Shown here one piece after another: positions 2,882 to 57,200 of a stretch of 64,000 nucleotides of DNA; position 1 is the first letter of the stretch; the number at the start of each line of letters is the position of its first letter. The position numbers and the translations under genes are program-made. The stretch is from a virus. The notes beneath the pieces are model-generated. The model had not been told where the DNA came from, made no database searches, and was given only the letters and a program-made list of their open reading frames with translations. Location: the IMG/VR virus record IMGVR_UViG_3300008448_011588, positions 1-64,000 of that record, one strand, 5' to 3'.

Positions 2882-4207
2882 ATGAGCTTTAATCCTAATA
2901 TGAAAAAAACTTTAGAGACAAAAACTAAATTGGAAAAAAAATTAGTTACTGAAGGTCTAACAAAAAAAGAAAAAGATACTTTGAAAAAGTTGAAAACAAA
3001 AATTAATGAAGCTCCAATCGATTATGAAGGTCCTGAAAGAATGGACCCCAATATCGAGAGAAAAATTACAAGTAGAGAAACTCCATTTTCATCTAGTCCG
3101 GCAATGCCAACAGGTGACCGTGATTTCGTTGAATTGGTTTCATCTCAAAGATTTAAAAACTCTGTAGAGAATGTTGGTCGTTATTTAGGAACTACCGCAC
3201 CTTTACAAGGTCGTAATCCTTTGATGCAACTTATGGGAATGGCGATGCAATCGCTACAACAAGTTATGAGAATTGAATTCCAGAACAGGGAATATCTCGA
3301 AAGACTGGCAGTTGATTTGGTTAAAAAAGAAATGGGAATTCCTGAAGGAGCAATGCAGTTTGATGCGAAGTTAGTTTCAGGTCCAATGTCTTCGGCTGAA
3401 GGAATGAGAGCCGAACCTCAAACACCAAGTAAGGAAGATGTAAAACAGGCTTTCAAACACCAAGAAGAACTTGAGGATTTTGCCGATGAGTTTGAAAAAT
3501 TTAATTTGGAGAAGTCAAAAAGAAGATTTATTAATTCATTGATACAAGGTGCGTCTAAAAAAGGACACTATATGTTTGAGTTGGTTAGAGATGAACTAAA
3601 TCGTCTTGACCCGAATTTGGTTAATTTATATGGTGTTAATCAATCGCTTATGGACCATTTATATTGGGTAATGCCTGATATGGAAAGTATGGCTGCTAGC
3701 GGTGGAGGTCAAATGGGGCAAACTAGTGTTGACCCTGAAACAGACCCCCCAACAGTTAAAGCAAGAGCCGCAACTTTTCCACTCCTTATTCACGAATTGA
3801 TTAAGGGTGTTTATGAAATATTTGGTACTCACGGATTACCTGATGACCCACGTCAAGCCGAAATGGTTATGGGGTCTGAAGATACATTACCTGCGGAAAT
3901 ATGGGATATGAGATTAGGTCCGATATTTTGGGAAAAATTCACCGCGGCATATCCAATTGAATTATTTGATGATGATAAGAAACATATCCAACATTACTTG
4001 TTCATGAGATTTTCTAAATTACCGGCTGAGGACTTTTTCAAATTTGCCAAAGCGGTATTAAACGGAGACCCGGCAGGAACAAAAGCGATACAAAGAATGG
4101 TTGATGAGATTGTTTCTGATTTGAAGAAACAAGAATATGAACAAGAAGCTTCCAAATGGGAAGACGATGATATCGATGACGTAGATTTAAGTAGTTTAGG
4201 TCTTTAA
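2882..4207 (+). CDS. Conserved-looking structural protein upstream of terminase
   Basis: 441 residues, starting 1 base after the previous stop. The N-terminus is Lys-rich and helical, the middle carries Met/Gln-rich helices, and the C-terminal half is a well-folded-looking domain containing FPLLIHELIKGVYEIFGTHG and YLFMRFSKLPAEDFFKF. It ends in an acidic tail. I do not recognise it. Its position at the end of an operon closed by a terminator, immediately before the terminase, suggests a head or packaging role. No catalytic motif is visible. Confidence 0.6.
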   Translation: MSFNPNMKKTLETKTKLEKKLVTEGLTKKEKDTLKKLKTKINEAPIDYEGPERMDPNIERKITSRETPFSSSPAMPTGDRDFVELVSSQRFKNSVENVGRYLGTTAPLQGRNPLMQLMGMAMQSLQQVMRIEFQNREYLERLAVDLVKKEMGIPEGAMQFDAKLVSGPMSSAEGMRAEPQTPSKEDVKQAFKHQEELEDFADEFEKFNLEKSKRRFINSLIQGASKKGHYMFELVRDELNRLDPNLVNLYGVNQSLMDHLYWVMPDMESMAASGGGQMGQTSVDPETDPPTVKARAATFPLLIHELIKGVYEIFGTHGLPDDPRQAEMVMGSEDTLPAEIWDMRLGPIFWEKFTAAYPIELFDDDKKHIQHYLFMRFSKLPAEDFFKFAKAVLNGDPAGTKAIQRMVDEIVSDLKKQEYEQEASKWEDDDIDDVDLSSLGL

Positions 4208-4211
4208 TTAA

Positions 4212-4235
4212 AAACCCCCACATTGTTGGGGGTTT
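4212..4235 (+). terminator. Rho-independent-like terminator
   Basis: A perfect 9-base stem (aaaccccca / tgggggttt) with a 6-base loop lies just after the stop at 4207. The downstream T run is weak, but position and stem strength fit a terminator closing the first operon. Confidence 0.75.
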
Positions 4236-4237
4236 AA

Positions 4238-4245
4238 TATTTATA
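4238..4245 (+). promoter_or_regulatory. Late-promoter-like TATTTATA before terL
   Basis: TATTTATA lies 3 bases after the terminator hairpin and 15 bases before the terminase ATG, so it is well placed to start a new transcript. Confidence 0.55.
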
Positions 4246-4260
4246 TACAAATACAATCTT

Positions 4261-6021
4261 ATGACAAAAGAACAAGTGATGATTGAATACGTTAGGTGTA
4301 TGAAGGATACTTCATATGCCCTTCGTACATATCTACAAACCTATGACAATACAGTTTCAAAATACGTTCCTTTGGAATTATTCCCTGACCAGATATCCTT
4401 ACTTGAGGATTATGAGAACTTTAATGAAAACATTGCGTTAAAATATAGACAGGCGGGGGTATCTACGGTGACCGCCGCTTGGATATCAAAAAAACTGGCG
4501 TTCGCTAAAAAAATTAAGCCTGAAAAAATTCTTATAATCGCCAACAAACTTGATACATCTCAAGAAATGGCAAATAAAATTAGGGCATTTATGACACAAT
4601 GGCCGTCTTGGGTTGGGATTGATTTTTCAACAGAAAAAGACTCACAGAAACATTATAAATTAAATAATGGTTGTGAGGTTAAAGCCGTGGCAACATCTAA
4701 AGACGCATTACGTGGATTTACCCCAACGATATTAATATTTGACGAGGCGGCATTTATAGACGCTGACAGTGATTTTTGGGCGGCTTGTATGGCGTCGTTG
4801 TCTACGGGTGGTAAAGTAATAGTTGTATCAACTCCTAACGGATATGACCCAATCTATTATGAAATCTACGACCAAGCATTAAGGAATATGAACGATTTCA
4901 AAATTTCTGAAATGTATTGGTTTAGAGACCCAAGATATACAAAAGATTTATATCTTGTTAAGACAAAAGACATTATTCATTATCTATTAAATAAAGAAGA
5001 ATATAATCCTGATGATATTATAAGTTGGGAAAATATACCATTTGAAAAACGAGATTACGTTGAGTTAAAATCAATTATGGACACAGGTTATAAGCCATGT
5101 TCTGCTTGGTTTGAGGGGATGGTTAAGAAACTTAAGTACGACAAACGTAAGGTTTCACAGGAATTGGAATGTAACTTTTTGGGGTCAGGTGATAACGTAT
5201 TTGACTCAAATTTGTTACAAAAAGTTAGGGAAAATTATATACGAGAACCACAAAATAAAATGATGGGTAACGCCCTTTGGATTTGGAAAGAACCTGTTAT
5301 TGGTCATAAGTATGTGATGGGTGTCGATGTTAGTAGGGGTGATAGTGAAGATTTTAGTTCGTTTCAAATAATTGATTTTGATACTAGAGAACAAGTTGCG
5401 GAGTTTGTTGGAAAACTTCCTCCTGACACCATGGCCGATGTTTGTTACAAATGGGCAAATATGTATTCTTGTTTTGTTGTGATTGATATCACTGGTGGAA
5501 TGGGCGTTTCTACCGCAAGAAAAATGCAAGAAATAGGATATAAGGACTTATATGTTGATGGTGTTGATACCGCGAACAAATGGAAGTGGGACCCAAAGGC
5601 TGCTGAAAAAATACCGGGAATAAATTTTAACAATAAACGAGTACAGATTATTGCGGCTTTTGAGGAAGCAATGAGACACGAATTTAAGATTTACAGTAAT
5701 CGTTTGTTTAACGAGATGAATACGTTTGTTTATATAAACGGACGACCTGACCACCAAAAAGGTCACCACGATGACTTAATCATGTCAATCGCTATGGCTT
5801 GTTATGTTGCGGAATCTTCATTCTCACAATTAACAAAAGTTACAGAACAGACAAAAGCGATGTTAGAATCTTGGTCTGTCAGTAATAACGATAATGTAAG
5901 TGCTCAAATCGCATTTAATCCGGTAATACCAAATTATACAGATAGAACCAATCAATTTAACGGTAATAATATAACCAAAGATGATTATATGAAATACGGT
6001 TGGTTATTTGGAGGTAGATAA
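4261..6021 (+). CDS. terL: Large terminase subunit (T4 gp17-like)
   Basis: This is the ATP-driven DNA packaging motor and headful nuclease. The 586-residue product is close to T4 gp17 in length (about 610). An ATPase domain shows a deviant Walker A, RQAGVST at 63-69, lacking the usual lysine. The Walker B segment ILIFDEAAF has D161-E162. The C-terminal RNase H-like nuclease domain has VMGVDVSRGD with D356 and HHDDLIMS with D504-D505. The gene stands alone between a terminator/promoter pair and the portal gene. Deviant Walker A loops are common in phage terminases, so I expect the enzyme to be active. Confidence 0.93.
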   Translation: MTKEQVMIEYVRCMKDTSYALRTYLQTYDNTVSKYVPLELFPDQISLLEDYENFNENIALKYRQAGVSTVTAAWISKKLAFAKKIKPEKILIIANKLDTSQEMANKIRAFMTQWPSWVGIDFSTEKDSQKHYKLNNGCEVKAVATSKDALRGFTPTILIFDEAAFIDADSDFWAACMASLSTGGKVIVVSTPNGYDPIYYEIYDQALRNMNDFKISEMYWFRDPRYTKDLYLVKTKDIIHYLLNKEEYNPDDIISWENIPFEKRDYVELKSIMDTGYKPCSAWFEGMVKKLKYDKRKVSQELECNFLGSGDNVFDSNLLQKVRENYIREPQNKMMGNALWIWKEPVIGHKYVMGVDVSRGDSEDFSSFQIIDFDTREQVAEFVGKLPPDTMADVCYKWANMYSCFVVIDITGGMGVSTARKMQEIGYKDLYVDGVDTANKWKWDPKAAEKIPGINFNNKRVQIIAAFEEAMRHEFKIYSNRLFNEMNTFVYINGRPDHQKGHHDDLIMSIAMACYVAESSFSQLTKVTEQTKAMLESWSVSNNDNVSAQIAFNPVIPNYTDRTNQFNGNNITKDDYMKYGWLFGGR

Positions 6022-6029
6022 TATTTATA
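6022..6029 (+). promoter_or_regulatory. Late-promoter-like TATTTATA before portal gene
   Basis: TATTTATA begins directly after the terminase stop codon and lies 57 bases before the portal ATG, a longer leader than usual here. Confidence 0.4.
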
Positions 6030-6086
6030 TAAAACCAACAAAATAATATCTATTTAGTTATTATTTGTGGTGATTAAAATTACCCT

Positions 6087-7886
6087 ATGGAGAATAACAA
6101 TAATCAAATTACGGTTTGGCAAAGGTTAACGAGAGCATTTGGTCCAAATGCGTTACTCAACCAGGATTATCCAACCTACAAATTCGATAAGAAGGAGTTA
6201 CTTCGCACAACTTCAAAACAAGAATACGATAAAGAGCTGTTACAAGCTCAACAAACTTTTTATTTAGCAAATCAATGGACTAAAATAGAAAGTAATCTTT
6301 ATACCCAAGCGGTTTATTACGAACCAACAAGATTGGCTTCGTTTTATGATTATGAATCTATGGAATATACTCCCGAGATTTCAGCGGCTTTGGATATCTA
6401 CGGTGAAGAGTCAACAACCGTTGACCAGAATGGTTATATGCTTCAGATTTATTCTGAATCAAAAAGAATTAAGGGTATTCTAACCGATTTATTTAACAAT
6501 GTTTTAGATATTAACACCAACTTACCTATGTGGACTAGAAACACTTGTAAGTATGGTGATAACTTTGTGTATTTGAAATTAGACCCTGAAAAGGGTGTTG
6601 TTGGGTGTATGCAGTTACCGAACATTGAGATTGAGCGTTTGGAACGTGGTATGCCGGCAAAATCACAGAATGTAGAAGAACCAAAAGAAAATAGAGGGTT
6701 AAGATTTAAGTGGAAAGCAAAGGACATGGAATTTAATTCATGGGAAATTGCTCACTTTAGATTGATGGGTGATGACAGAAAGCTGCCATACGGTACATCT
6801 ATGTTGGAAAAGGCTCGTCGTATTTGGAAACAATTATTGTTATCTGAAGATGCTATGTTGATTTATAGAACATCGAGAGCACCTGAAAGAAGGGTATTCA
6901 AAGTGTTTGTTGGTAATATGGACGATAAAGATGTGGAGGCGTATGTACAACGTGTCGCCAACAAATTCAAACGTGACCAAGTTGTTGACAATAAAACAGG
7001 TAATGTTGATATGAGATTTAATCAAATGGCCGTTGACCAAGATTACTTTATCCCTGTTAGAGACGCGGCAGCTCCAAACCCAATTGATACATTACCTGGT
7101 GCTCAAAACCTGTCAGAAATTGCGGATATTGAATATATCCAAAAGAAACTTTTGACCGCACTTCGCGTACCAAAAGCATTTTTAGGGTTTGAAGAAGTTG
7201 TTGGTGAAGGTAAAAATTTATCATTACAGGATATTCGTTTTGCTCGCACAATCAATAGAATTCAAAAATGTATGATTGCCGAATTAAATAAAATCGCAAT
7301 CATTCACTTGTTCTTGATGGGATTTGAAGATGAGTTATCAAACTTTACATTAGGGTTAACCAATCCGTCAACCCAAGCAGATTTACTTAAAATTGACGTT
7401 TGGAAAGAAAAAGTTTTATTATATAAAGACGCGGTTACCGCCATCGAAGGTATTGCACCTGTGTCAGTTTCTTGGGCTAAAAAACACGTACTTGGTTTTT
7501 CTGATGAAGAAATTAAACTTGATTTACAACAACAAAGAATTGAAAAGGCAGTTGGTGCAGAATTGACTAACACCGCAACAATCATTACACATACAGGTAT
7601 ATTTGATAATATCGATAAATTATATGGTTCTATCACTGGAGGTACTGCGGCTGGAGGAGCACCACCTCCACCACCAGGAGGTGAAGAAATGGGAGGAGCT
7701 CCCCCACCATCTCCACCGGCAGGAGGTGAAGAACCGCCAATTCCCGAGTCGTTTAAGAGGGATAATTTGAAAATTTTACTAGAGAATGATAGTCTAACTG
7801 AATCAGATAGTTTTATCGATTTATCAAGAGCTAAAAATTCTTTGGGGGAAATTGAGTCTGAATTGTCAAAACTCTTGAGGGATTGA
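6087..7886 (+). CDS. 20: Portal vertex protein (T4 gp20-like)
   Basis: The portal forms the dodecameric ring at the special capsid vertex through which DNA is packed. The 599-residue product (T4 gp20 is about 524) shows features of the T4-type portal family: YTPEISAALDIYGEES near residue 95, an ELNKIAIIHLF helix, and a YIQKKLLTALRVPKAFLGFEE segment. The added length is partly a low-complexity Gly/Pro-rich tail around residues 520-552, followed by a charged C-terminal helix. It is adjacent to terL, as in many T4-like genomes. Family assignment is from recalled motifs and gene order. Confidence 0.85.
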   Translation: MENNNNQITVWQRLTRAFGPNALLNQDYPTYKFDKKELLRTTSKQEYDKELLQAQQTFYLANQWTKIESNLYTQAVYYEPTRLASFYDYESMEYTPEISAALDIYGEESTTVDQNGYMLQIYSESKRIKGILTDLFNNVLDINTNLPMWTRNTCKYGDNFVYLKLDPEKGVVGCMQLPNIEIERLERGMPAKSQNVEEPKENRGLRFKWKAKDMEFNSWEIAHFRLMGDDRKLPYGTSMLEKARRIWKQLLLSEDAMLIYRTSRAPERRVFKVFVGNMDDKDVEAYVQRVANKFKRDQVVDNKTGNVDMRFNQMAVDQDYFIPVRDAAAPNPIDTLPGAQNLSEIADIEYIQKKLLTALRVPKAFLGFEEVVGEGKNLSLQDIRFARTINRIQKCMIAELNKIAIIHLFLMGFEDELSNFTLGLTNPSTQADLLKIDVWKEKVLLYKDAVTAIEGIAPVSVSWAKKHVLGFSDEEIKLDLQQQRIEKAVGAELTNTATIITHTGIFDNIDKLYGSITGGTAAGGAPPPPPGGEEMGGAPPPSPPAGGEEPPIPESFKRDNLKILLENDSLTESDSFIDLSRAKNSLGEIESELSKLLRD

Positions 7887-7894
7887 TATTTATA
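7887..7894 (+). promoter_or_regulatory. Late-promoter-like GATATTTATA
   Basis: GATATTTATA overlaps the end of the portal gene and ends 11 bases before the next ATG. Confidence 0.55.
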
Positions 7895-7905
7895 AATAAA
7901 AAGAC

Positions 7906-8622
7906 ATGGTAAAGTTCGGTTTATTAAAATCAAAGATAGAAAAATTGATGTTAGAATCTTATTCTAACGGAACATTCAAGACTGAAATGAAAAATTTCAA
8001 AAAGAATGTATTGGAAAATAAAAACATTTCAAAACTTTTTTATCTATATGATGAATTGAATTCTAATAAAGGTTTGAATGAATCTATTGTGGATGATTAT
8101 ATCTACGAATGTATAACGATATATGAAAATACAATCAATAAGATTAAAAATTCAACCCTTGTTGATTTATCTAATTGGGTGGTTAATGTAAAGTCAGATA
8201 ACAATTACTCTACTATCGACAATCTATTCTCTAATGATGTTCTCACAATTGAATCTAGATTATCTAGCAAAAAATTGATTAAAGAGTCGTTAAAGAAAAA
8301 ACCTGCAGATAAAAAAGAAGTTGTTAATTTACCATTAAGTACTATGGTAAATGTTGCTAATAAAACAATTTCTAATTTTATTGAAAGTTTGAATGAGTCT
8401 GAAAAGAAAGAATTAGTTGATTTTCTTAAGACTGACGATAAAGAATTAGAGGGTAATTTTGAGCAACTAAAAGAAAGTGTCACCAAAAAATTGGAGACAA
8501 TTAAAGAGAATGCTGACACAGAAACTAAAAGTAGGATTAATGAAACTTTGGAAAAGGTGGTTTCAGAAAAATACGACAAATTTACTTATTTCAAATTAAA
8601 GAATCTTAACGAGAATCTTTAA
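7906..8622 (+). CDS. Probable prohead core protein between portal and protease
   Basis: 238 residues, strongly helical and Lys/Glu/Asn-rich, with the N-terminal MVKFGLLKSKIEKLMLESYS. There is no catalytic motif. In T4 the space between the portal and the protease holds small prohead core proteins (gp67, gp68), and this protein fits by place and composition, although I see no clear sequence match. The N-terminal helix ends in MLE, weakly resembling a gp21 cleavage site. Its last 4 bases overlap the convergent bS21 gene. Confidence 0.55.
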   Translation: MVKFGLLKSKIEKLMLESYSNGTFKTEMKNFKKNVLENKNISKLFYLYDELNSNKGLNESIVDDYIYECITIYENTINKIKNSTLVDLSNWVVNVKSDNNYSTIDNLFSNDVLTIESRLSSKKLIKESLKKKPADKKEVVNLPLSTMVNVANKTISNFIESLNESEKKELVDFLKTDDKELEGNFEQLKESVTKKLETIKENADTETKSRINETLEKVVSEKYDKFTYFKLKNLNENL

Positions 8623-8807
8623 AAGTCTTTGTTTTTCATTTTCTGAACATACTTGGCCTTTTTCAACATTTTTCTTTTTCTAACCGACTTCTTTTCATAC
8701 TCCTTTCTTTCGACGAGTTGACTTGACTGTCGGGTCTTAATCACTTTACTTTTGAGTAACTTTAATGCTCTCTCAATACCGTTTTTATCTACTTTGACAA
8801 TTAACAT
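8619..8807 (-). CDS. rpsU: Ribosomal protein bS21, phage-encoded
   Basis: 62 residues that match the small-subunit protein bS21 along their whole length: MLIVKV, then IERALKLLKSKV, an arginine-rich middle, and KSVRKRKMLKKAKYVQKM. bS21 binds the 30S platform next to the 3' end of 16S rRNA. The spacing and the KAKYVQ tail (Tyr53) resemble Bacteroidota bS21, whose C-terminal tyrosine region helps hide the anti-Shine-Dalgarno sequence. It is the only reverse gene inside the head block and has both a host-type promoter element and a late-type word upstream, so it may be expressed separately from the structural genes. Known phages encode bS21; its role here is inferred. Confidence 0.85.
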   Translation of the reverse strand: MLIVKVDKNGIERALKLLKSKVIKTRQSSQLVERKEYEKKSVRKRKMLKKAKYVQKMKNKDF

Positions 8808-8811
8808 ATAT

Positions 8812-8819
8812 AATAAATA
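8812..8819 (-). promoter_or_regulatory. Late-type TATTTATT 4 bases before rpsU
   Basis: On the minus strand TATTTATT ends 4 bases before the bS21 ATG. A transcript started from it would have almost no leader. Confidence 0.45.
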
Positions 8820-8845
8820 ACGCTTAAATTGAATTTTTTTTGACT

Positions 8846-8887
8846 ACCGATACAAATATACTTATTTTTTTAAAAATAAACATCGGT
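8846..8887. repeat. Nested inverted repeat in divergent intergenic region
   Basis: accgat (8846-8851) pairs with atcggt (8882-8887), and inside it attttt (8864-8869) pairs with aaaaat (8872-8877). It lies between the divergent bS21 gene and the gene starting at 8902 and encloses the TATATTTG element. It could be an operator or a structured leader; its T-run is not placed like a standard terminator. Confidence 0.5.
8853..8860 (-). promoter_or_regulatory. Host-type TAnnTTTG promoter element for rpsU
   Basis: The minus strand reads TATATTTG, a perfect match to the Bacteroidota -7 consensus TAnnTTTG, 45 bases upstream of the bS21 ATG. The matching -33 TTG about 20 bases further up is imperfect (GATG). 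Host polymerase could therefore express bS21 early. Confidence 0.45.
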
Positions 8888-8901
8888 AAAATGAAAAGTT
8901 G

Positions 8902-9363
8902 ATGAAAAAAGGGAAAACTTCACCAATCGCAGGATTTAAAAATGCGAAGGTGATTTATGGCACGGTAGATTCAGTTGAATTTAAGTCTTTATATTTAAAC
9001 ATACAAACTTGGGTAGAACCAATTGTTGATTCTGATAACTGGCAAAGGGTTGTATTAAATCTAACAAGGTCGATTAAACATACGGTACATGAAATATTAG
9101 ATAGATTAGTCTTTGAGGAAAACTTTATTGTGGATTTAGATTTAAGGTCAAGTGGATTATCTCTAAAGAAAAAATCGTTTTTAAATCTAGAGATAAATTT
9201 TTATATTAAAAAGAAAGATTTAGATTTTAAATCAAAAAAATTAAAGGATATATTGAAAAAAGTAACCAAGGAAATAATATCAATACACTTCACAAAAAAC
9301 GAATACTTCAAATTTTATTTACGTAAAACCGTCAAACCAAAGGAAACTATACTACAAAGTTGA
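8902..9363 (+). CDS. Hypothetical protein, head region
   Basis: 153 residues from the ATG at 8902; a TTG at 8899 is also in frame but less likely. It is Lys-rich with alternating hydrophobic strands and helices, for example NWQRVVLNLTRSIKHTVHEIL, and has no signal peptide or known motif. It lies between the bS21 gene and the prohead protease, so a head-assembly role is possible, but I do not recognise it. Confidence 0.6.
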   Translation: MKKGKTSPIAGFKNAKVIYGTVDSVEFKSLYLNIQTWVEPIVDSDNWQRVVLNLTRSIKHTVHEILDRLVFEENFIVDLDLRSSGLSLKKKSFLNLEINFYIKKKDLDFKSKKLKDILKKVTKEIISIHFTKNEYFKFYLRKTVKPKETILQS

Positions 9364-9372
9364 AAAACAAAG

Positions 9373-9380
9373 TATTTATT
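9373..9380 (+). promoter_or_regulatory. Late-type TATTTATT before prohead protease
   Basis: TATTTATT ends 7 bases before the protease ATG. Confidence 0.45.
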
Positions 9381-9387
9381 ATAAAAA

Positions 9388-10113
9388 ATGAATATGGAAG
9401 TTTTGAAACCCGGACAATCAGGCAAAGGCATTCTAATCGAATACGATGCTGGATACTTATCACCAACTGAAAAACGTAATGTTGATTTGATACATGAGTC
9501 CAAAGGAATGTTGGACCATTCAAAACCATTTGAATTCTACGCAGTACTTCAGAAATTTAACACCCCAAACAGAAACGGAAGAATATATCCTGAAAAAGTA
9601 TTAAAGAGAGAAGCCGACAATTATAAGAAAATGATTAACAAGGGTATTGCTTTATCCGAACTTAATCACCCTGAGTCATCACTTGTTGACTTGGACAGAG
9701 TTTCTCATTCAATTAGTGATATATGGTGGGAAGGTCCTGTTCTTATGGGTAAATTAAAATTATTAACTTCACCAGGTTTTCATGAGAGAGGTATTGTATC
9801 AACCAAAGGAGACCAAGCGGCAAATCTTTTAAGACAAGGTGTTACACTTGGTATATCATCTCGTGGTGTAGGGTCGCTTAAAAAAATTGGGGAACAAAAC
9901 GAAGTACAGGATGACTTTGAGTTGATTTGTTTTGACCTTGTATGGTCTCCATCCACTCCTGGTGCTTATCTTTTCACTGAACCTGATGACAGATTTAAGT
10001 TTGAAGAAAACTTGGATGAGGAGAAAAAAATGAAAGCTGAAAGAGAATTTGGTGGCCCAACCGACAAATCGCTTGACTTAATGAAGAAATTGAACGATTA
10101 TTTGGGTTACTAA
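9388..10113 (+). CDS. 21: Prohead maturation protease (T4 gp21-like, S77)
   Basis: This serine protease trims scaffold, capsid and internal proteins inside the prohead. The product has 241 residues (T4 gp21 about 212). A catalytic His lies in ELNHPES (H94) and the Ser in GISSRGVGS (S157 or S158), the order and spacing typical of the family. Other family-like segments are NGRIYP near residue 63 and FDLVWSPSTPGAYLF near the C-terminus. In T4 the enzyme cuts after Glu in [L/I]-x-E sites, and such sites occur in the capsid protein and in several small proteins here. Confidence 0.9.
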   Translation: MNMEVLKPGQSGKGILIEYDAGYLSPTEKRNVDLIHESKGMLDHSKPFEFYAVLQKFNTPNRNGRIYPEKVLKREADNYKKMINKGIALSELNHPESSLVDLDRVSHSISDIWWEGPVLMGKLKLLTSPGFHERGIVSTKGDQAANLLRQGVTLGISSRGVGSLKKIGEQNEVQDDFELICFDLVWSPSTPGAYLFTEPDDRFKFEENLDEEKKMKAEREFGGPTDKSLDLMKKLNDYLGY

Positions 10114-10124
10114 AACTCAATAAA

Positions 10125-10334
10125 ATGGACGAAAAATATTTTGTAGCAAAAATTACAACAGACATGCCTGACTCCGAAACAGGTAAAATTAAAAAATTAA
10201 GACAGGAAAAATTAGTTAAAGGTTATTCACCGACTGATGTTGAAGCAAAAGTGACAAAGGTTTTTGAGAACTATTCGGAAGACTGGAGAATAACAGCTAT
10301 TGTAGAAAGTAAAATTGATGAAGTGATAGGATAA
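10125..10334 (+). CDS. Small hypothetical protein
   Basis: 69 residues. The pattern KYFVAKITTDMPDSETGKIKK, then KLVKGYSPTDVEAKVTKVFE, looks like a small alpha/beta protein of the kind found next to gp21 in related phages. It is co-directional with the protease and is closed by a strong terminator. No known function. Confidence 0.6.
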   Translation: MDEKYFVAKITTDMPDSETGKIKKLRQEKLVKGYSPTDVEAKVTKVFENYSEDWRITAIVESKIDEVIG

Positions 10335-10356
10335 TCAAAAAATTATCAATAGTTGT

Positions 10357-10382
10357 AAAAGGAGGGGAAACCCTCCTTTTTT
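10357..10382 (+). terminator. Rho-independent terminator
   Basis: Perfect stem aaaaggaggg / ccctcctttt with a gaaa tetraloop and a following T run. Confidence 0.9.
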
Positions 10383-10393
10383 TTATTCTGATA

Positions 10394-10401
10394 TATTTAT
10401 C
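10394..10401 (+). promoter_or_regulatory. Late-type TATTTATC 4 bases before nuclease gene
   Basis: GATATATTTATC follows the terminator and ends 4 bases before the next ATG, predicting a nearly leaderless message. Confidence 0.5.
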
Positions 10402-10405
10402 AGAT

Positions 10406-11362
10406 ATGAAAATTACAATTTCAGAGGGTCAGTATAAGATACTATCAGAATATTTCAAAAGACCAACAGACCCTATTGCCGCTCATATTAGGAAAACATT
10501 GAAAGATGTTTATTCCCCATCTAATTGGGGTAAAATTGAAAACCCTGATGAGGGTTGTGCCACCGATTTTGGGGTCATTGGGGTTTATCAGCATATACCT
10601 GGTAAAGATGAATGGTCGATACTTAACAGATTTGACACCAATACCAAAGTAAGACGAAAAATGGAGTCCTTGTTTCATGAGGATGAACCTGATACTGAAT
10701 TAACTCCTAAAAAATTCATGGAGTGGATTACTCTGAACGCAGAAAGATTATTTAAGGGTCCAATCACTGATGAATTAGTAGAATTGAATAAAACCACAAT
10801 TGAGAGGGGAAATCAAAATGAAGATTATGCAATTCAAATATTACAAGAATTTTTCGGTGAGAACGCCAAAATTGTAAGATTTTGTTCTGGTGATATTAGA
10901 GACACTAGAAAGGGAATGGATATTGCGGTAACTGCGGGTGGTAAAACATTTCACGTACAAGTAAAACCATTTACCTACATAAGAAGTTTGGTTGATAAAG
11001 ATGGTGATACTTTTTTTGAAGTAACATCAAGGGGTTTTGACTCTACAAAATATTCTGAATCAAATGTACAAGTATTTTTATTCGTTGATTTAGATAGAAA
11101 AAGATATGTTGCATTCGCTAATAAGAAAAATAAAATTAGAAAAGTAACAACTGAAATAACAAGGTATGACGAACCGTATCTGTTAAGCAATATAAATTTT
11201 GAAGGTCAAACAAAAGTTAAGTCATATAGAAACACTCCTGTCGAAGACGATATATTCAAAGTCGGAGAAAGAAGATTACAAAATCTAGAATTTAGAAAAG
11301 CGGAAATCGAAAAAATGATTGAGCTTGAAAAACAAAAGTTAGGAAAATCAGGAGAAAAATAA
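10406..11362 (+). CDS. PD-(D/E)XK-like nuclease with capsid-targeting-like N-terminus
   Basis: 318 residues. Near the middle a conserved-looking glutamate helix (ERGNQNEDYAIQIL) is followed by RKGMDIAVTAGGKTFHVQVKPF. The D-x(n)-Q-x-K arrangement is typical of PD-(D/E)XK nuclease folds in which Glu is replaced by Gln. The C-terminus is a charged helix. The first 15 residues (MKITISEGQYKILSE) resemble the N-terminal segment of other small proteins in this window and end in LSE, a possible gp21 cleavage site. It sits between the protease and the scaffold. I infer a packaged nuclease; a DNA-repair or packaging role is the alternative. Confidence 0.55.
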   Translation: MKITISEGQYKILSEYFKRPTDPIAAHIRKTLKDVYSPSNWGKIENPDEGCATDFGVIGVYQHIPGKDEWSILNRFDTNTKVRRKMESLFHEDEPDTELTPKKFMEWITLNAERLFKGPITDELVELNKTTIERGNQNEDYAIQILQEFFGENAKIVRFCSGDIRDTRKGMDIAVTAGGKTFHVQVKPFTYIRSLVDKDGDTFFEVTSRGFDSTKYSESNVQVFLFVDLDRKRYVAFANKKNKIRKVTTEITRYDEPYLLSNINFEGQTKVKSYRNTPVEDDIFKVGERRLQNLEFRKAEIEKMIELEKQKLGKSGEK

Positions 11363-11416
11363 TAAAAAATATTTAGTATCAAAACGAATAATAAAAAATT
11401 TTTATGATTTGATACA

Positions 11417-11424
11417 TATTTATA
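11417..11424 (+). promoter_or_regulatory. Late-type TATTTATA before scaffold/capsid operon
   Basis: TATTTATA ends 20 bases before the scaffold ATG. No further such word occurs before the capsid gene, so the two are probably co-transcribed. Confidence 0.5.
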
Positions 11425-11444
11425 TAGAAAAATAAAAACAAAGA

Positions 11445-12965
11445 ATGGCAAAAGAAAAATCTATTGTTGAAGAAGCAATCCTCCAAATGAAAAATTTGGA
11501 AGAAGCGGTTGCGGAAAATGCAAAAGGAATACTTGCTTCGACTATGAAGGAAGAAATCAAAGAATTAGTAAAAGAATCTCTTAACGAACAAGGCGAAGAA
11601 GAGGTTGACATGGAAGTGGACATGGAAGAACCCGAAATGGAAGATGAGGACGAAATGGACTCAGACGAAATGGATATGGGTATGGAAATGGACACTGATA
11701 ACATCGAAGATGACGAACCTATCGACTTAACTGACAAATCAGATGAGGAGGTTTTACGTGTTTTCCAATTAATGGGTCCTGATGACCATATCGTTGTTAC
11801 TAAAGATGACAGCGGTAACATTAGTGTGAAAGATACTGAAACTGACAAAGAATACATGATTGTTGGTGAAGGAGAAGAATCTGATTACACATCTATGGAA
11901 AAAGACATGTATGACATGGCGGACGACTCAGAAATGGGTGATGCTATGATGGATGACACAATGATGGATGACACAATGATGGAAGATGACGACGTTATTC
12001 CTATGGAAGAAGAAGAATATCTATCTGAAAAAAGTGTTGAAGACATCGTTAATGACATATTCGATGAAGGTAATGAAGAACAAGAAGAAGGTTACGTCTA
12101 TGAAATCGACATGAATGAAGAATCTGACGATGATGAGGATGATACTGATGAGGAATCTGAAGGTATTGTCTATGAAATCGAAATGGATGAAGAAATCGAA
12201 GAGGACATGGATGAATCATATGACCAAGAAAATGAAGGTTACTTGGAAGAAGGTAAAAAATCCACCAGGGCTAAAGGCATGGGCATGGGTAAGGCTTCAA
12301 AATTCAAGTATCGTAAAAATCCGAATCAAGGCGAAGGGTTTAAAGTTGTTAAGAAAACCGCCAACAAAACTATGGGAACAGGAAGTGCTAAAAAAGGCTT
12401 CTCCTATGACAAGAATGGTGAAAATCTTGACGGCGAATTTAAAATTAAACCAAAAGGCGTTAAGAAGGCGGAAACAAAAGAAGCTGCACGTACATACGGA
12501 AATGGTTCTAAAGAAGGACGTGGTTTAAGAAAAGGAATCACACCTAACAGAAACTTGAAGTTTGAAAGTGTGGATAGCAGTGAGTTACAACTTCTTCGTG
12601 AAAAGAATGAAGAATACAGAAAAGCGTTGAACGTATTCAGAAACAAATTAAATGAAGTTGCCGTGTTTAATTCAAATTTGGCATACGCAACTCGTTTATT
12701 TACTGAACACTCAACATCTAAACAAGAGAAAATTAACATCTTGAGAAGATTTGATTCTGTTGAAACATTGAAAGAATCGAAGAATTTGTACAAATCAATC
12801 AAAGATGAGTTGTCAGGAAGTTCTGCTCAACCAATGAATGAGTCAATCGGTCAAGTAATCGAAAAGGCACCATCAACAGGTTCAGCAATCAACTTAATTG
12901 AGTCAAAAACATATGAAAACCCTCAATTCCTGAGAATGAAAGATTTGATGAATAAATTAAAATAA
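11445..12965 (+). CDS. Prohead core scaffold protein (T4 gp22-like)
   Basis: 506 residues, much longer than T4 gp22 (about 269). An N-terminal helix is followed by an extremely acidic Asp/Glu/Met region (about residues 48-255, including repeated MMDDT units), then a basic Lys/Gly-rich segment. A C-terminal helical domain contains NEVAVFNSNLAYATRLFTEH and SKQEKINILRRFDSVETLKE, which is the part that looks like gp22-type scaffolds. It sits directly upstream of the capsid gene, as gp22 does in T4. The acidic expansion is likely to be removed or internal in the mature head. Confidence 0.7.
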   Translation: MAKEKSIVEEAILQMKNLEEAVAENAKGILASTMKEEIKELVKESLNEQGEEEVDMEVDMEEPEMEDEDEMDSDEMDMGMEMDTDNIEDDEPIDLTDKSDEEVLRVFQLMGPDDHIVVTKDDSGNISVKDTETDKEYMIVGEGEESDYTSMEKDMYDMADDSEMGDAMMDDTMMDDTMMEDDDVIPMEEEEYLSEKSVEDIVNDIFDEGNEEQEEGYVYEIDMNEESDDDEDDTDEESEGIVYEIEMDEEIEEDMDESYDQENEGYLEEGKKSTRAKGMGMGKASKFKYRKNPNQGEGFKVVKKTANKTMGTGSAKKGFSYDKNGENLDGEFKIKPKGVKKAETKEAARTYGNGSKEGRGLRKGITPNRNLKFESVDSSELQLLREKNEEYRKALNVFRNKLNEVAVFNSNLAYATRLFTEHSTSKQEKINILRRFDSVETLKESKNLYKSIKDELSGSSAQPMNESIGQVIEKAPSTGSAINLIESKTYENPQFLRMKDLMNKLK

Positions 12966-12993
12966 ACTTTAAATTAATAAAAAACCAAACAAA

Positions 12994-14847
12994 ATGGGAG
13001 CATTATTAGAATCAGGTCTTGTTGGTAACATCGGTCTTAAGCACCTTAAAGTTATCAAAGAAGATACTATCAACAAATGGGACAAATTAGGGTTCCTCGA
13101 AGGTCTTAAGGGCCACCTAAAAGAAAATGTTGCGCAGTTATATGAAAACCAAGCGTCACATTTGATTAACGAAGCAACTTCTGACGGTTCTTCAGGTTCA
13201 TTTGAAACTGTTGTATTCCCAATCGTTAGACGTGTATTCTCTAAGTTACTTGCTAACGACATTGTATCTGTACAAGCTATGAACTTACCAATTGGTAAAT
13301 TGTTCTACTTCGTACCGAAGATTCAAGGTTATAACAATGGTGTTGGTGGTTCCTCAACCGGACCATTTGACTCAAGTTCAGGTCAGCACTACGCACCTGT
13401 AGGTTCACCTGGTAATTACCCTGGTGACCCAAATTCTGGTTACACTTTGTCAAATGGTTCATACAACGGTACTTATGCTAAAAACCTTTATGATTTATTC
13501 TATGAAGGCACTGAACCTGGATTGAACCCAGCAGGTCTTTTTGACTATTCAAAAGGTCGTTGGTCGGCAGTAACCACATCAGCTACAGTTGTTGCTTGGT
13601 CTAATGGTACACTAGAACCCGCTCAGTCAGTTTACATCGGTAACAACATAAGAAAAGTTATTATCAGAGTTGGTGGTTTCACTAACACTGGTGTAGGTAA
13701 ATTAATAGCACCTGATGGTAATGAGATTGATACTGAAACTTTCTTGGCTAGTTTGATTGTTTATACTGGTACAGGTATTAGCGCGTCAACAACACCATGT
13801 GCGATTTCTACAGGACCACTTTTGTATAGAGTTGTAACTCAACAGTATGGTAAGGGTATTGTTAGTCCTACCTACACTCCAACAACAACTACTTGGCCTA
13901 CCGATGGTGGTGGTGGTACTTATGATAAAGTTTGTGACCAGACAGGTTATATCTATTTAGAAGTTGATTTGTCATGTCCTACATGTCCAACATGTGGTAG
14001 TGACACTATCGATGGTTACACAGGTGCAACTATCACTAACATTTTCTCAGGTTCAGCATTTAACGTAGCTTGGAGACGTTATGAAGAACTCGAATTCGAA
14101 GATAAAATCGGTGAAGTTTCTTTCGACCTTGAGTCAGTAACAGTTTCTGTGACTGAAAGAAAGTTGAGAGCTCAGTGGTCACCAGAACTTGCTCAAGACG
14201 TTGCGGCATTCCACAACATCGACGCTGAAGCCGAATTGACAGCTTTATTGTCAGAACAAGTTGCGGCTGAAATTGACCGTGAAATTCTTCGTGACCTTCG
14301 TAAAGGAGCGGCTTGGAATTTACGTTGGGATTACAACGGATGGAGAAGAGTTGCTAATACAACTTCTTACACTCAAAAAGACTGGAACCAAACTTTGATT
14401 ACAGCAATCAACCAATTATCTGCTCAAATTCACAAGTCAACACTTCGTGGTGGAGCAAACTGGATTGTTGTTTCTTCCGAAGTTTCAGCTATCTTTGATG
14501 ACTTGGAATATTTCCACGTTTCAAATGCGTCACCTGAACAAGACCAATACAACATGGGTATTGAGAGAGTGGGTACACTTGCTGGTCGTTACCAAGTATA
14601 TCGTGACCCATACTTCCCATCAAACCAAGTATTGATTGGTCATAAAGGTACATCGTTACTTGATACTGGTTACATTTACGCACCGTATGTACCACTTCAA
14701 TTAACTCCAACTATGTACAACCCATTCAACTTTACACCTATCAAGGGTATCATGACACGTTACGCGAAGAAAATGGTTAATAACCGTTTCTACGGACGTA
14801 TCACAGTTGATGGTGTACGTACATTTGACTTACAAGAACTTAGATAA
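12994..14847 (+). CDS. 23: Major capsid protein (T4 gp23-like)
   Basis: 617 residues (T4 gp23 is 521). The N-terminus shows a cleavable segment ending HLINE60-A61, a good [L/I]-x-E site for the gp21-type protease at nearly the place cut in T4 (after residue 65). The following FETVVFPIVRRVFSKLLAND and PIGKLFYFVPKIQG are characteristic of the family, as are VSVTERKLRAQWSPELAQD and GRITVDGVRTFDLQ in the HK97-fold core. The extra length lies in a Gly/Ser/Thr-rich insertion (about 110-350) with a CPTCPTCG cysteine cluster. A strong terminator follows. Confidence 0.93.
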   Translation: MGALLESGLVGNIGLKHLKVIKEDTINKWDKLGFLEGLKGHLKENVAQLYENQASHLINEATSDGSSGSFETVVFPIVRRVFSKLLANDIVSVQAMNLPIGKLFYFVPKIQGYNNGVGGSSTGPFDSSSGQHYAPVGSPGNYPGDPNSGYTLSNGSYNGTYAKNLYDLFYEGTEPGLNPAGLFDYSKGRWSAVTTSATVVAWSNGTLEPAQSVYIGNNIRKVIIRVGGFTNTGVGKLIAPDGNEIDTETFLASLIVYTGTGISASTTPCAISTGPLLYRVVTQQYGKGIVSPTYTPTTTTWPTDGGGGTYDKVCDQTGYIYLEVDLSCPTCPTCGSDTIDGYTGATITNIFSGSAFNVAWRRYEELEFEDKIGEVSFDLESVTVSVTERKLRAQWSPELAQDVAAFHNIDAEAELTALLSEQVAAEIDREILRDLRKGAAWNLRWDYNGWRRVANTTSYTQKDWNQTLITAINQLSAQIHKSTLRGGANWIVVSSEVSAIFDDLEYFHVSNASPEQDQYNMGIERVGTLAGRYQVYRDPYFPSNQVLIGHKGTSLLDTGYIYAPYVPLQLTPTMYNPFNFTPIKGIMTRYAKKMVNNRFYGRITVDGVRTFDLQELR

Positions 14848-14866
14848 TCTTATCTATAGTATAATT

Positions 14867-14894
14867 AAAAAGGGACGAGAAATCGTCCCTTTTT
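14867..14894 (+). terminator. Terminator after major capsid gene
   Basis: Stem aaaaagggacga / tcgtcccttttt with a gaaa loop and a T-rich tail. Confidence 0.9.
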
Positions 14895-14962
14895 TATTTA
14901 TAAATATATTGTAAAAAACATCACATAATAAGTTTATTTTACAAATTGCGTGAATTAGACTA

Positions 14963-14970
14963 TATTTATC
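14963..14970 (+). promoter_or_regulatory. Late-type TATTTATC before barrel gene
   Basis: TATATTTATC ends 30 bases before the ATG at 15001. A second such word (14895-14902) overlaps the terminator tail. Confidence 0.4.
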
Positions 14971-15000
14971 ATTATTATAATAAATTTTAAAAAACAAATA

Positions 15001-15795
15001 ATGAAAAAACAAATCTTATTTTTAACCTTAATGATTATGTCGTTATTTACAATGGCCCAAACTTCAGTTCCTGTAGATACGACAAAAACCGGTGGTCTAT
15101 TCTACAAACCGGCTAAAAAACAAAGTCCGTTCACAAGTGAATTTGGTATTGCCACATCTAATCTTTGGAGAGGTGTTGATGTAGGTAAGCAACCCGTAAT
15201 AAAAATGATTGCGGATTATCAACCAGTAGATTGGTTTACACTAACTTCAGAGGCGAATGTGGTGTATAATCAATTTAAAGATGGTTATGGAAACACAGTG
15301 AAGAATCAAGCAATGTTCAATATCTATAACACTTCTTTAGGCGTTCAGGACATTTACTTTACTCAAAACACTTTTTTACAGAGTGATACAAATTATTTCC
15401 ATTATAATAAAAAAACAACTTCCCACTTTTTAGAAGCGGCTATTAGATATAAGGGTGATGCTAAAAGTAGAATTGACTTTTTAGCAACTTATGTGTTCTA
15501 CCAAAACGAAGCTTACAAAAAAGGAGCGGCATATTTTGAAGCAACCTACCACTTGGATTATAACGCGGACCTATTCGTAGGATACGTGACAGGAGAATCC
15601 CAAGTTAATTTCCAACAAAAGGCGGGTTTCACTAATGTCGGTGTTGTTGTTAAAAGAACATTACAATTCTCTAAAACAACTGACGCAAATACAAGACTTA
15701 CAATTATGGTAAATCCTATGTATAAAACGGCAATTGTACCAAACTCAACGGTTGCTAATAGACCTATTACGGCCAATCTACAGATATTATTTTAA
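15001..15795 (+). CDS. Exported outer-membrane beta-barrel-like protein
   Basis: 264 residues. A classical signal peptide (Lys2-3, hydrophobic core, cleavage at TMA-Q20) is followed by alternating amphipathic strands, for example FGIATSNLWRGVDVG and FTLTSEANVVYNQF, and the protein ends in a phenylalanine, as outer-membrane barrels do. The SNLWRG strand resembles the start of TorF-like putative porins. The gene is monocistronic, with its own promoter word and terminator, directly after the capsid operon. It may change the infected cell's surface, for instance to exclude other phages, but that is inference; a host-derived porin is the alternative. Confidence 0.7.
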   Translation: MKKQILFLTLMIMSLFTMAQTSVPVDTTKTGGLFYKPAKKQSPFTSEFGIATSNLWRGVDVGKQPVIKMIADYQPVDWFTLTSEANVVYNQFKDGYGNTVKNQAMFNIYNTSLGVQDIYFTQNTFLQSDTNYFHYNKKTTSHFLEAAIRYKGDAKSRIDFLATYVFYQNEAYKKGAAYFEATYHLDYNADLFVGYVTGESQVNFQQKAGFTNVGVVVKRTLQFSKTTDANTRLTIMVNPMYKTAIVPNSTVANRPITANLQILF

Positions 15796-15816
15796 TCTGA
15801 TATAAGATTTTTGATT

Positions 15817-15846
15817 AAAGGAGGGTATAACCCTCCTTTTTTTTTA
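15817..15846 (+). terminator. Terminator after barrel gene
   Basis: Stem aaaggaggg / ccctccttt, loop tataa, followed by eight or more T. Confidence 0.9.
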
Positions 15847-15910
15847 GACAAAAATATTTAATCCTTCGACATAAAATCTTATAGAAACAGAATATGAATA
15901 TTTATTAAGA

Positions 15911-15918
15911 TATTTATA
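15911..15918 (+). promoter_or_regulatory. Late-type GATATTTATA before nuclease/subtilase pair
   Basis: GATATTTATA ends 17 bases before the ATG at 15936. No other such word precedes the subtilase, so the two genes probably share it. Confidence 0.55.
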
Positions 15919-15935
15919 TATGAATTGTTTTTTAT

Positions 15936-16517
15936 ATGAGGTTTATTTTATTCTCGATTTTATTATTTTTACAAATTAGTGTTTTTTCACAGTTAAGAGA
16001 TTCGGTCTATGTTAAGACTGAAATTTTTAATATTGTCTATTCTGAAAAATTACAACAACCTAAGTGGGTTGAATATAACGTGATATGTCACGATGGTAAA
16101 ATATCTAGAAAAGGGTTAGATTTTTATCCTATAAAGGGAATAGTTACTTCTACAAATGAAGATTATGAAAATAATATTTATGATAAGGGCCATCTAGCAC
16201 CCGCAGCGGACTTCAATTGTAATCAAGACTATCTAAAACAAACATTTTCTTACTTGAATTGTGTTCTACAACACGAAAGATTAAATAGAGGGGTTTGGAG
16301 ATTACTAGAATCTCGTGAGAGAGAACTCTCAAAACAATATAAGGTATCTGTTGAAATAAGAATTAATTACAGTAAAAATTCAAAAGTCCTGTCAACAGGG
16401 GCCACAGTTCCCGATTCTTTTACTAAGACAATTATGTATAATAATAAAAAAGAAAAATATTTCTTCAAAAATGAAGAACCGAAATCATCTGACCCTAATT
16501 TATATAGGGTTAATTGA
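15936..16517 (+). CDS. Secreted DNA/RNA non-specific endonuclease
   Basis: 193 residues. An N-terminal signal peptide (MRFILFSILLFLQISVFS, then Gln) predicts export. The catalytic region has YDKGHLAPAADF, equivalent to the DRGH motif with the general-base His. Next comes FSYLNCVLQHERLNRGVWRLLE, matching the family's metal-binding Asn followed by N-x(3)-W and a Glu. Members of this family cut DNA and RNA without sequence preference. A secreted nuclease from a phage could act in the periplasm or outside the cell, on extracellular DNA or on incoming competitor DNA. It is followed, 33 bases on, by a secreted protease. Confidence 0.85.
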   Translation: MRFILFSILLFLQISVFSQLRDSVYVKTEIFNIVYSEKLQQPKWVEYNVICHDGKISRKGLDFYPIKGIVTSTNEDYENNIYDKGHLAPAADFNCNQDYLKQTFSYLNCVLQHERLNRGVWRLLESRERELSKQYKVSVEIRINYSKNSKVLSTGATVPDSFTKTIMYNNKKEKYFFKNEEPKSSDPNLYRVN

Positions 16518-54273: not shown

Positions 54274-57200
54274 ATGGCGAGCCAAAATATTAATCAGTAC
54301 GTACCTCCCAATTCATACCCAAAATTTGCGGTAGGTACTACTGATATATCGTTATCATCCGATAATACGGGTTTCAATCAGGAGGTAGTGTTCTCCCCAT
54401 ACTTAATTGCTCAAACTTACGGTAATAAATTACCAATTTATTTTGATACTAACGACCCAAATACAGTACAAGATTATCAGTTACAATACGGTACATATAA
54501 CCCATACAATATCTTTATATCACAAAATTATTATAATCCCAATAACGTTGATTTAGATTGTGAGCCCGAAGGTTCATCTTGTGATATTGGACTAACAGGT
54601 ATTGATAATGGTTTAGTTTCGTCAATGACAGGTCAAACTATCTATTACACCAATGGTCTTTTTGGCCCGGGACTAAAATTCAATAGGCAATTCTATGACA
54701 GACGTTTTAAGATGTTTCAGGTTACTGCTTATACTGATTCACCTAATGTAAGATTTTCAGGTTTTTCGGGTGGTGTTGCTTATGAAGTTGTTAATAAATA
54801 CGACATGTATATTGGTAACTACCATGAATTATACGGTGGTTTTTACCAAGGATTTTATAAATTACATGGATATGAATATGATATTCTTCCTGAAAGGGTA
54901 AATAAGGGATGGACGGTCGAGATGATATTGAAACCTCGACTGGTTAATGAATATACGCCGGTTTCGGGTAAAACTACATTAAATCAAATATACCCTGAAA
55001 ACAAAAACATATTCTTTTATTTAGGGACCAGGGCTGAAAATAAATTCTACCATTATGCGGACGGGACCCCAAATTGCTTTACAGGGTATACTCGAATTAC
55101 ATCTCCATTAACATCAATTGAGACTTGTGCTTGTTGTAATAAAACAATTACTAACAGTAGATGTATCTATGTATATCCCCCTCGTTCGGTTAATGGTGTT
55201 CACGACCCTCACGCTAATTATGGTTGCAATATTTGTAACGGGGATGCCAGAGCTTCTGCAAGTTGTGGATGTGGATGTAACCTAACATTGTGCGAAAGTT
55301 GTGGGTGGGAATGTCAAACACACACTTGTGGTACGGTCATATTACCAACCCCAACACCTACACCATCCCCCACACCTGGACCTTATAATTGTATAACGGC
55401 AACACCTTGTGAAGTTTGTACGACTTGTCAAACTTGTGATACATGTAATGATTGTGAATTTGAGGGGTTTACATCGATTGAGGATACTTGTGAAAAGGAC
55501 CCAAAATGGGATGCGATATCAAATAACTTGGCAATAAGGTTATGTGGCGACCCTAAAAACCCAAGTATCGGAGTTAAGGTTTTGAGATTTACTGGTGATT
55601 GTGAAAGTACCGGAAGTTGTCAAACTTCAGGTATTACCTTTGCAACTGGATATACAGTAGTTGAATACTGTTCCCCACCGATTTATCCATATTGCGAAGC
55701 AATAAATCCCGCTTATTTAGATTCAGAACATTGGTTCCAAGTCGACGTTGTTTGGGAAAGAAATACATGGTTAGATTATTGTGATTTGAGGAGTCGAGGT
55801 GGTTTAGAGGATATAACTCAAACTGTGTCACTCCAATCATTGGCGAATAATTCGGTAGCTTTAATTGTCCCGCCATATACAAGAGGTACCGAGGATTTAG
55901 AAATTGATATTGTACAGTTAAACGAAAAATGGTTATTAGATTCTTACTACAGAAAAGGTAAATTAAAAATTTATGTGAATGGTAGAATCATTTATACAAT
56001 CGATGATTTTGAGGAAGTAATACCAAGAGCCCTCAACACAGATAAAGAAAAACAAGTTGGTGTTCCGTTTAATATATCATGGGGTGGAGGAACGCAAGGA
56101 TTAAGAGAAAATCTAACCTTCAACCCTAAACCTGAATGTGACATTGCCTTTGGGGTTGAGGTGGACATCAATTTAAGTATTTTCATTTCCTCGGGTTCTA
56201 TAAATATTAGATATCTATTAGATTCTGGGTTTGTTTTTGCCGAAAATATAACTCTGAGTTTTACTCACAAACTAGGTAAGACAAATGGTGAGTTCATAAC
56301 TTTTAATTCCACCGTTACAATTGTATCAGGTAATTTATACGGAGAGGGATTTGTTACTCTACCTGATGATTTCTATGAATTAGATGGGGTTAGTTTAATA
56401 GAAAATGCGGTCGTTACACCATCAAACATCTCTTCTAATTTTATTGTGAGTTCGGATACAATGTTCATTACGCCTTCCCCAACTCCAACCCCAACCAACA
56501 CACCAACTAATAGTCCGACTCCAACAAATACCCCTACCATAACGGTATCACCTTCAGAAACTCCAACAAATACCCCAACAGAAACATTAACTCCAACCCC
56601 TACTATTACAGAAAGTCCAACAAGTACCGTGACTGAAACCCCTACCAGTACTGTAACTGAAACGCCAACTTCAACTCCTACTGTAACCCCAACTTTAACA
56701 CAAACAATTACCCCAACAATTACATCAACTGAAACTTTAACACCAACACCAACAATTACAAATACAGTAACTAATACTACCACTCCATCAAATACGGTCA
56801 CTATAACTCCCACTATAACATTAACAGAAACTCAAACACAAACACCAAGTTTAACACCTACTAACACTCCGACGAATACTCAAAATTTCATAGAACCAAC
56901 ACCTACTAGCACTCCGACTAATACAGTTACTAATACAATAACAAATACACCAACAAATACAGTGACTAATACGACTACTAATACTACAACACCAACACCT
57001 ACTATTACAGACACACCTACTAATACCCCAACAGTAACCGTAACTAAAACGCCTGGATTATCACCAGACCCAACATCAACACCAACCCCTACTATTACAG
57101 TAACAAATACTCAAACACCAACACAAACCCCAACCCCAACTAAATTAAATGGTGGAAGTATTTCTTTTGATTACACATTAAATAACTACTTATCGATGTC

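Follow-up and report, generated by a model that had tools for sequence, protein, structure and literature searches.

A bS21 gene among the head genes of a putative Bacteroidota virus lacks the strong Shine-Dalgarno sequence of many cellular rpsU genes

The reverse-strand gene at positions 8619 to 8807 of IMG/VR virus record IMGVR_UViG_3300008448_011588 encodes, as judged by homology, a true ribosomal protein bS21 of 62 residues, and the phage bS21 genes to which it belongs are predicted to lack the strong Shine-Dalgarno (SD) sequence seen in many of the host rpsU genes sampled here. The stretch of DNA analysed, hereafter the window, comprises the first 64,000 of the 65,053 bases of this record. 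For the most part this is confirmation of a phage group already described, as the gene, its position and the idea of ribosome takeover were published in 2022 (PMC9723584) and there is no difference in kind; the SD result is the addition made here. It provides a sharp, testable contrast between the strong SD of many Bacteroidota rpsU genes, which is reported to be autoregulatory, and its absence from the phage copies, so that displacement of a host ribosomal protein by a phage could be tested in F. johnsoniae with reporters of the published type.

The gene call (ATG start, TAA stop) is supported by Pfam, PDB, alignment and dN/dS evidence. Ribosomal_S21 (PF01165) matches the product with an E-value of 2.9e-8 and 33.7 bits (cut-off 27), with residues 4 to 55 aligned to profile positions 2 to 54 of 55, which bears out the bS21 identity proposed in the first-pass annotation. 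The NCBIfam model TIGR00030 scores 26.6 bits, below its cut-off of 28.95, and in PHROGs the S21 family is a weak match at E 0.12. Of seven PDB sequences listed for the protein, the best two are the bS21 proteins of 9i5v (E 1.4e-6) and 7jil (E 3.6e-6), the remaining five having E-values of 0.23 or worse. 7jil is the F. johnsoniae ribosome (PMC9723584) and the bS21 of 9i5v groups with Bacteroidales sequences in our tree, in agreement with the Bacteroidota type assigned at first pass. The C-terminal KAKYVQ that had been pointed out occupies residues 50 to 55 and holds Tyr53, which aligns with Tyr54 of F. johnsoniae bS21 in an alignment with 74 cellular sequences. The structure model consists of two helices (residues 10 to 25 and 29 to 61; mean pLDDT 76.8 and pTM 0.38 for a very short protein), and a Foldseek search of this model against the PDB returned no matches, a result that is uninformative for a protein so short. 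The score against Pfam, the conservation among relatives and the signs of purifying selection led us to reject a chance open reading frame or a relic at 8619-8807.

As the annotation had also stated, the gene lies amid head genes, on the strand opposite to them, between terL and portal on one side and the protease and major head protein on the other. The positive-strand genes encode the terminase large subunit (4261-6021; phrog_5989, E 2.1e-24), the portal protein (6087-7886; phrog_213, E 7.9e-67), the head maturation protease (9388-10113; phrog_207, E 2.8e-43) and the major head protein (12994-14847; phrog_138, E 7.6e-67). The immediate neighbours of bS21 are a convergent gene (7906-8622, positive strand) and a divergent gene (8902-9363, positive strand; taken to begin at the ATG at 8902 in place of the listed TTG at 8899), both kept beside bS21 in relatives and neither assigned to a confident family, with no PHROGs matches and only sub-threshold matches in Pfam. 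The stop codons of the convergent gene and of bS21 overlap within the four bases TTAA (8619-8622), and an intergenic stretch (8808-8901) separates bS21 from the divergent gene. No terminator-like sites were detected within 7800-9500.

This arrangement is conserved among viral relatives. In a first set of loci, consisting of the best 80 of 300 IMG/VR relatives, bS21 is opposite in strand to every detected neighbouring gene in 80 of 80 loci, and both immediate neighbours were detected in 78; in the other two, L001 and L076, the contig stops short. Together with the window these 81 loci hold 25 distinct bS21 proteins. One of them, L006, whose contig measures 322,372 bases, has a bS21 and ten tested neighbouring proteins that are all 100% identical to those of the window. 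A second IMG/VR scan, queried with F. johnsoniae bS21, yielded 24 loci, 20 of which have the window-like arrangement (only the start of bS21 is present in L185); in this set the terminase large subunit shows 67-69% best-segment identity in most members and 74% in L163. In three others, L176, L177 and L184, which represent another phage group, bS21 is co-directional with the protease and, if present, the MCP, and in the tree the bS21 sequences of this group are distant from the main phage clade. In the last, L162 (5001-6448), bS21 adjoins what are, by our own reading, a XerC-like recombinase and an HPF-like protein. This locus has the appearance of a cellular rpsU bordering an integrated element, and viral collections can therefore contain host rpsU. 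Among annotated phage records, megablast with window positions 4000-16000 gave no match, and tblastn with the window bS21 gave one weak match (E 2) to a 642-kb uncultured phage.

The closest described system is that of Chen et al. 2022, who reported 47 phage genomes with predicted Bacteroidetes hosts and bS21 on the reverse strand among the TerL, portal, protease and MCP genes (PMC9723584). As in the window, the bS21 gene of these lake myoviruses lies between two hypothetical genes, and their GC content of 31.0-33.7% (PMC9723584) encloses the 32.6% of the window. Their genomes measure 293-331 kb and each encodes 5-25 tRNA genes (PMC9723584); the window record is a 65,053-base piece, the L006 contig has the 322,372 bases given above, and no tRNA gene was detected in the window, which is only part of a genome. 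In their comparison bS21 was lost from view at about 70% TerL similarity (PMC9723584), close to the values of our second set, although identity and similarity are not the same measure. The published account describes late expression of bS21 in such phages and an aromatic residue at the position of Tyr54, and proposes that phage bS21 substitutes into host ribosomes as a means of takeover (PMC9723584). A term search of that text returned no occurrence of promoter, autoregul- or untranslated (PMC9723584); the SD and late-word analyses are added here. A second phage-encoded bS21, that of pelagiphage HTVC008M, compared here by description, differs in its origin, which Mizuno et al. 2019 (PMC6375957) place in an alphaproteobacterial host. 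In the cultured Flavobacterium phage vB_FspM_immuto, terL, portal, protease and MCP are arranged in this order too, and the portal protein is 38.6% identical over 63% of the query, but no bS21 is annotated at this place and its record gave no tblastn hit to the window bS21 at an E-value of 10.

The first-pass annotation had suggested aligning host and phage bS21 proteins and building a tree, and the outcome supports a distinct phage lineage. Of the 107 sequences in the tree, the first set contributes 25 phage proteins, the second set 6 and the co-directional group 2, while 74 are cellular (71 distinct proteins from the best 80 of at least 246 cellular loci, all Bacteroidota, together with two sequences from the PDB and that of L162). 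All 31 distinct phage sequences of the first and second sets fall in one clade with an SH-aLRT of 99, apart from cellular bS21. This clade is placed next to Flavobacteriaceae sequences with weak support (SH-aLRT 87) within a sample restricted to Bacteroidota, and the virus host is probably a member of the Bacteroidota. The exact host lineage is not fixed by the tree, because this was a quick search of 64 columns without bootstrap that left many open forks and raised a long-branch warning (L163 among others).

Residues conserved in cellular bS21 are partly kept and partly altered in this clade. The Tyr54 position is occupied by Tyr in 22, Phe in 2 and His in 1 of the 25 first-set phage proteins and by Tyr in all six of the second set; in the 74 cellular sequences, sampled from the best 80 of at least 246 loci, it is Tyr in 66, His in 7 and Phe in 1. 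Residues of the second helix are likewise kept in phage bS21. At position 27, Gly is present in 74/74 cellular sequences and is replaced by Arg in 25/25 first-set and Lys in 6/6 second-set phage proteins, while at position 23 the Phe of 74/74 cellular sequences is Val or Ile in 31/31 phage proteins; conservation at positions 19, 20 and 22-28 is partly imposed, because the single cellular search pattern fixed or restricted these positions (23 being limited to Val or Phe and 27 to Arg or Gly). Divergence of phage bS21 at Arg21, Phe23, Asp25 and Thr28 has been described (PMC9723584), and the changes at Gly27 and Phe23 are largely the same signal. Nei-Gojobori dN/dS values for bS21 have a median of 0.144 and a maximum of 0.399 over the 135 usable of 465 pairs, a range that indicates purifying selection on the phage protein.

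Pairing with the anti-SD was calculated between the last 22 bases of each leader and an 11-base 16S tail whose sequence we assumed, and values of -9 kcal/mol or better were regarded as strong. The CCUCC core of the tail is documented (PMC9976891). Strong SD sequences precede 66 of 80 cellular Bacteroidota rpsU genes (the best 80 of at least 246; median -13.5 kcal/mol), compared with 0 of 80 in a mock region, and none of the 22 distinct phage bS21 leaders from the 81 loci (median -0.15, strongest -6.4 kcal/mol). The window leader itself gives 0.4 kcal/mol, and the six distinct viral leaders of the second set, excluding L162, also pair weakly (-3.5 at best). The contrast is stable to leader lengths of 16, 22 and 30 bases combined with three tails, with strong SD sequences in 62-66 of 80 cellular genes and 0 of 21 or 0 of 22 phage leaders.

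In F. johnsoniae, where bS21 is required for growth, rpsU is autoregulated through an extended SD, with a pairing energy below -13 kcal/mol in autoregulated genes, that is used by ribosomes lacking bS21, as described by McNutt et al. 2023, who also speculate on phage bS21 (PMC9976891). The phage genes thus share family and Tyr position with the cellular rpsU of that study (PMC9976891) and differ in having leaders without a strong SD; no extended SD of the autoregulated rpsU type was found in the window bS21 leader. A literature search, within a scope that left out preprints and most subscription papers, found no report of a missing SD in phage bS21 genes. Two observations temper the interpretation of this contrast. 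The missing SD may be a default rather than an adaptation, because phage genes here generally lack one: the first-pass statement that phage messages are SD-less agrees with 0 of 68 window genes having a strong SD (strongest -6.0 kcal/mol), these genes being our own selection from open reading frame lists with starts as listed, except for the shift from 8899 to 8902, some of which may be in error. The true host may also lack SD feedback, because a strong SD is absent from 14 of the 80 sampled cellular rpsU genes (best 80 of at least 246), including 9/26 from Flavobacteriales and 3/3 from Saprospirales (L084, L097, L099, L101, L103, L104, L106, L107, L109, L115, L133, L143, L149 and L154).

The sequence upstream of bS21 contains a candidate late promoter word. 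TATTTAT, on the negative strand at 8813-8819, ends 5 bases before the bS21 ATG, and the late-type word named at first pass is enriched in the window: it occurs no more than 40 bases upstream of 20/68 genes, compared with a mean of 2.87 and a maximum of 7 in 200 shuffles, with the qualification that it was picked after viewing upstream sequences and that five patterns were counted. By region, it precedes 15/33 genes in the first 31 kb, 2/29 between 31 and 54 kb and 3/6 beyond. Among relatives it is found at -12 in 7 of 28 distinct 60-base bS21 leaders, those nearest to the window, the remaining leaders having other AT-rich words. If TATTTAT is a -10 element, the bS21 mRNA would start at or near its ATG. 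In five genes just 4-5 bases separate the end of the word from the start codon, a gap that would leave almost no leader.

The second, host-type word of the annotation fared less well. The sequence TATATTTG, a match to TAnnTTTG, is present on the negative strand at 8853-8860, 53 bases upstream of the ATG, and the pattern occurs in 11/28 distinct 60-base leaders of relatives. However, TAnnTTTG precedes only 3/68 window genes (shuffle mean 1.86, maximum 6), which is not distinguishable from chance, and with its function doubtful it was dropped as evidence for a promoter. Nor did the T4-type late word TATAAATA show enrichment (4/68 window genes; shuffle mean 1.61, maximum 6), and a union of four words covering 28/28 leaders was set aside as these words were chosen after viewing the leaders. 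The best-kept block in an alignment of 31 distinct intergenic stretches is TCAAA (complement TTTGA), which the window stretch also holds. On the positive strand of the same stretch, TTGACT-17-TATTTT may be a promoter of the divergent gene; it is one of 16 promoter-like sites there, compared with 9.2 in shuffles.

The observed homology, kept position, single clade, purifying selection, lack of a strong SD and late-type word form the basis of the explanation that we prefer, from which we infer expression timing in the window phage, ribosome incorporation, covering of the anti-SD and escape from feedback. The ancestor of a group of large Bacteroidota myoviruses would have acquired bS21, which then stayed at one site within the head gene cluster. 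Made late in infection from a reverse-strand promoter of its own, the phage protein would replace host bS21 in host 30S subunits, where its C-terminal helix and Tyr53 would go on covering the 16S 3' tail in the manner of the host protein. Synthesis of the phage protein would proceed outside the feedback, because its mRNA does not carry the strong SD of many Bacteroidota rpsU genes, by which rpsU is thought to sense ribosomes lacking bS21. Ribosomes filled with phage bS21 should stay SD-blind and competent for initiation, a state on which phage and host mRNAs both rely, and translation of host rpsU should fall. For this account in full we consider the chances of its being right or wrong to be evenly balanced. 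Published work in its favour comprises late bS21 expression in this kind of phage (PMC9723584), the autoregulation of F. johnsoniae rpsU (PMC9976891) and the entry of pelagiphage bS21 into E. coli ribosomes (Mizuno et al. 2019; PMC6375957). The weak anti-SD match of some phage leaders (-6.4 kcal/mol) counts against it, and the E. coli ribosomes with pelagiphage bS21 had about 5% activity (PMC6375957), so that replacement need not yield working ribosomes.

With a bS21 that covers the anti-SD, initiation should remain of the ordinary host kind, and the main effect should be reduced translation of mRNAs that carry an SD, host rpsU for example. The first-pass annotation had reasoned that a phage bS21 could retune initiation toward phage messages, which lack SD sequences. 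Covering the anti-SD would not by itself favour them, as Bacteroidia ribosomes generally make no use of the SD and host messages are mostly SD-less (PMC9976891), and SD absence thus does not separate phage from host mRNAs. If phage mRNAs are preferred, the altered residues of the N-terminal part and loop of phage bS21 would have to be responsible. This is the alternative advanced as a hypothesis in PMC9723584, in which changes in the N-terminal helix and loop create specialised ribosomes that choose phage late mRNAs over those of the host. The replacement of the cell-conserved Gly27 and Phe23 across the phage clade, at positions partly restricted by the search pattern, and the published divergence at positions 21, 23, 25 and 28 (PMC9723584) would fit such a role; however, no recognisable feature of phage mRNAs is known by which they could be chosen, the leaders in the window being merely A-rich and G-poor, and the mostly SD-less host messages (PMC9976891) offer no distinction. 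We consider this alternative possible, though distinctly less probable than the preferred explanation.

The two could also operate jointly. A feedback-blind phage bS21 would restore covering of the anti-SD in the ribosomes without bS21 that host rpsU needs and silence host bS21 synthesis, leading to one-way replacement in the ribosome pool, while its own SD-less, perhaps near-leaderless late mRNA would be untouched, and the changes of Gly27 to Arg or Lys and of Phe23 to Val or Ile may tilt initiation toward late mRNAs whose leaders are very short. This combined reading is offered as speculation that we think improbable. Slightly less probable again is simple supply, whereby phage bS21, being easily exchanged, completes 30S subunits late in infection as host synthesis drops, with no role in mRNA choice or feedback. 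The need of F. johnsoniae for bS21 (PMC9976891), late expression in relatives (PMC9723584) and the kept core residues are all consistent with supply, but clade-wide changes at residues kept in cells would be unexpected of a stand-in, though long separate evolution could suffice to produce them. A non-ribosomal role, such as carriage in the virion, a possibility raised in PMC9723584, or action as antisense RNA to the convergent gene, would suit the antisense placement between head genes in the kept set and the stop overlap in the window, but is very improbable given selection on the protein, the kept anti-SD-contacting position and the co-directional bS21 of L176, L177 and L184.

Elsewhere in the window, no tRNA genes and no Rfam matches were detected. 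Past the head genes are a non-specific DNA/RNA endonuclease (PF01223; 15936-16517) and a subtilase-family protease (PF00082; 16551-18860), and a Laminin_G_3 domain protein (54274-57783) and a Peptidase_S74 chaperone-domain protein (60112-61392) are probably tail or adhesin components.
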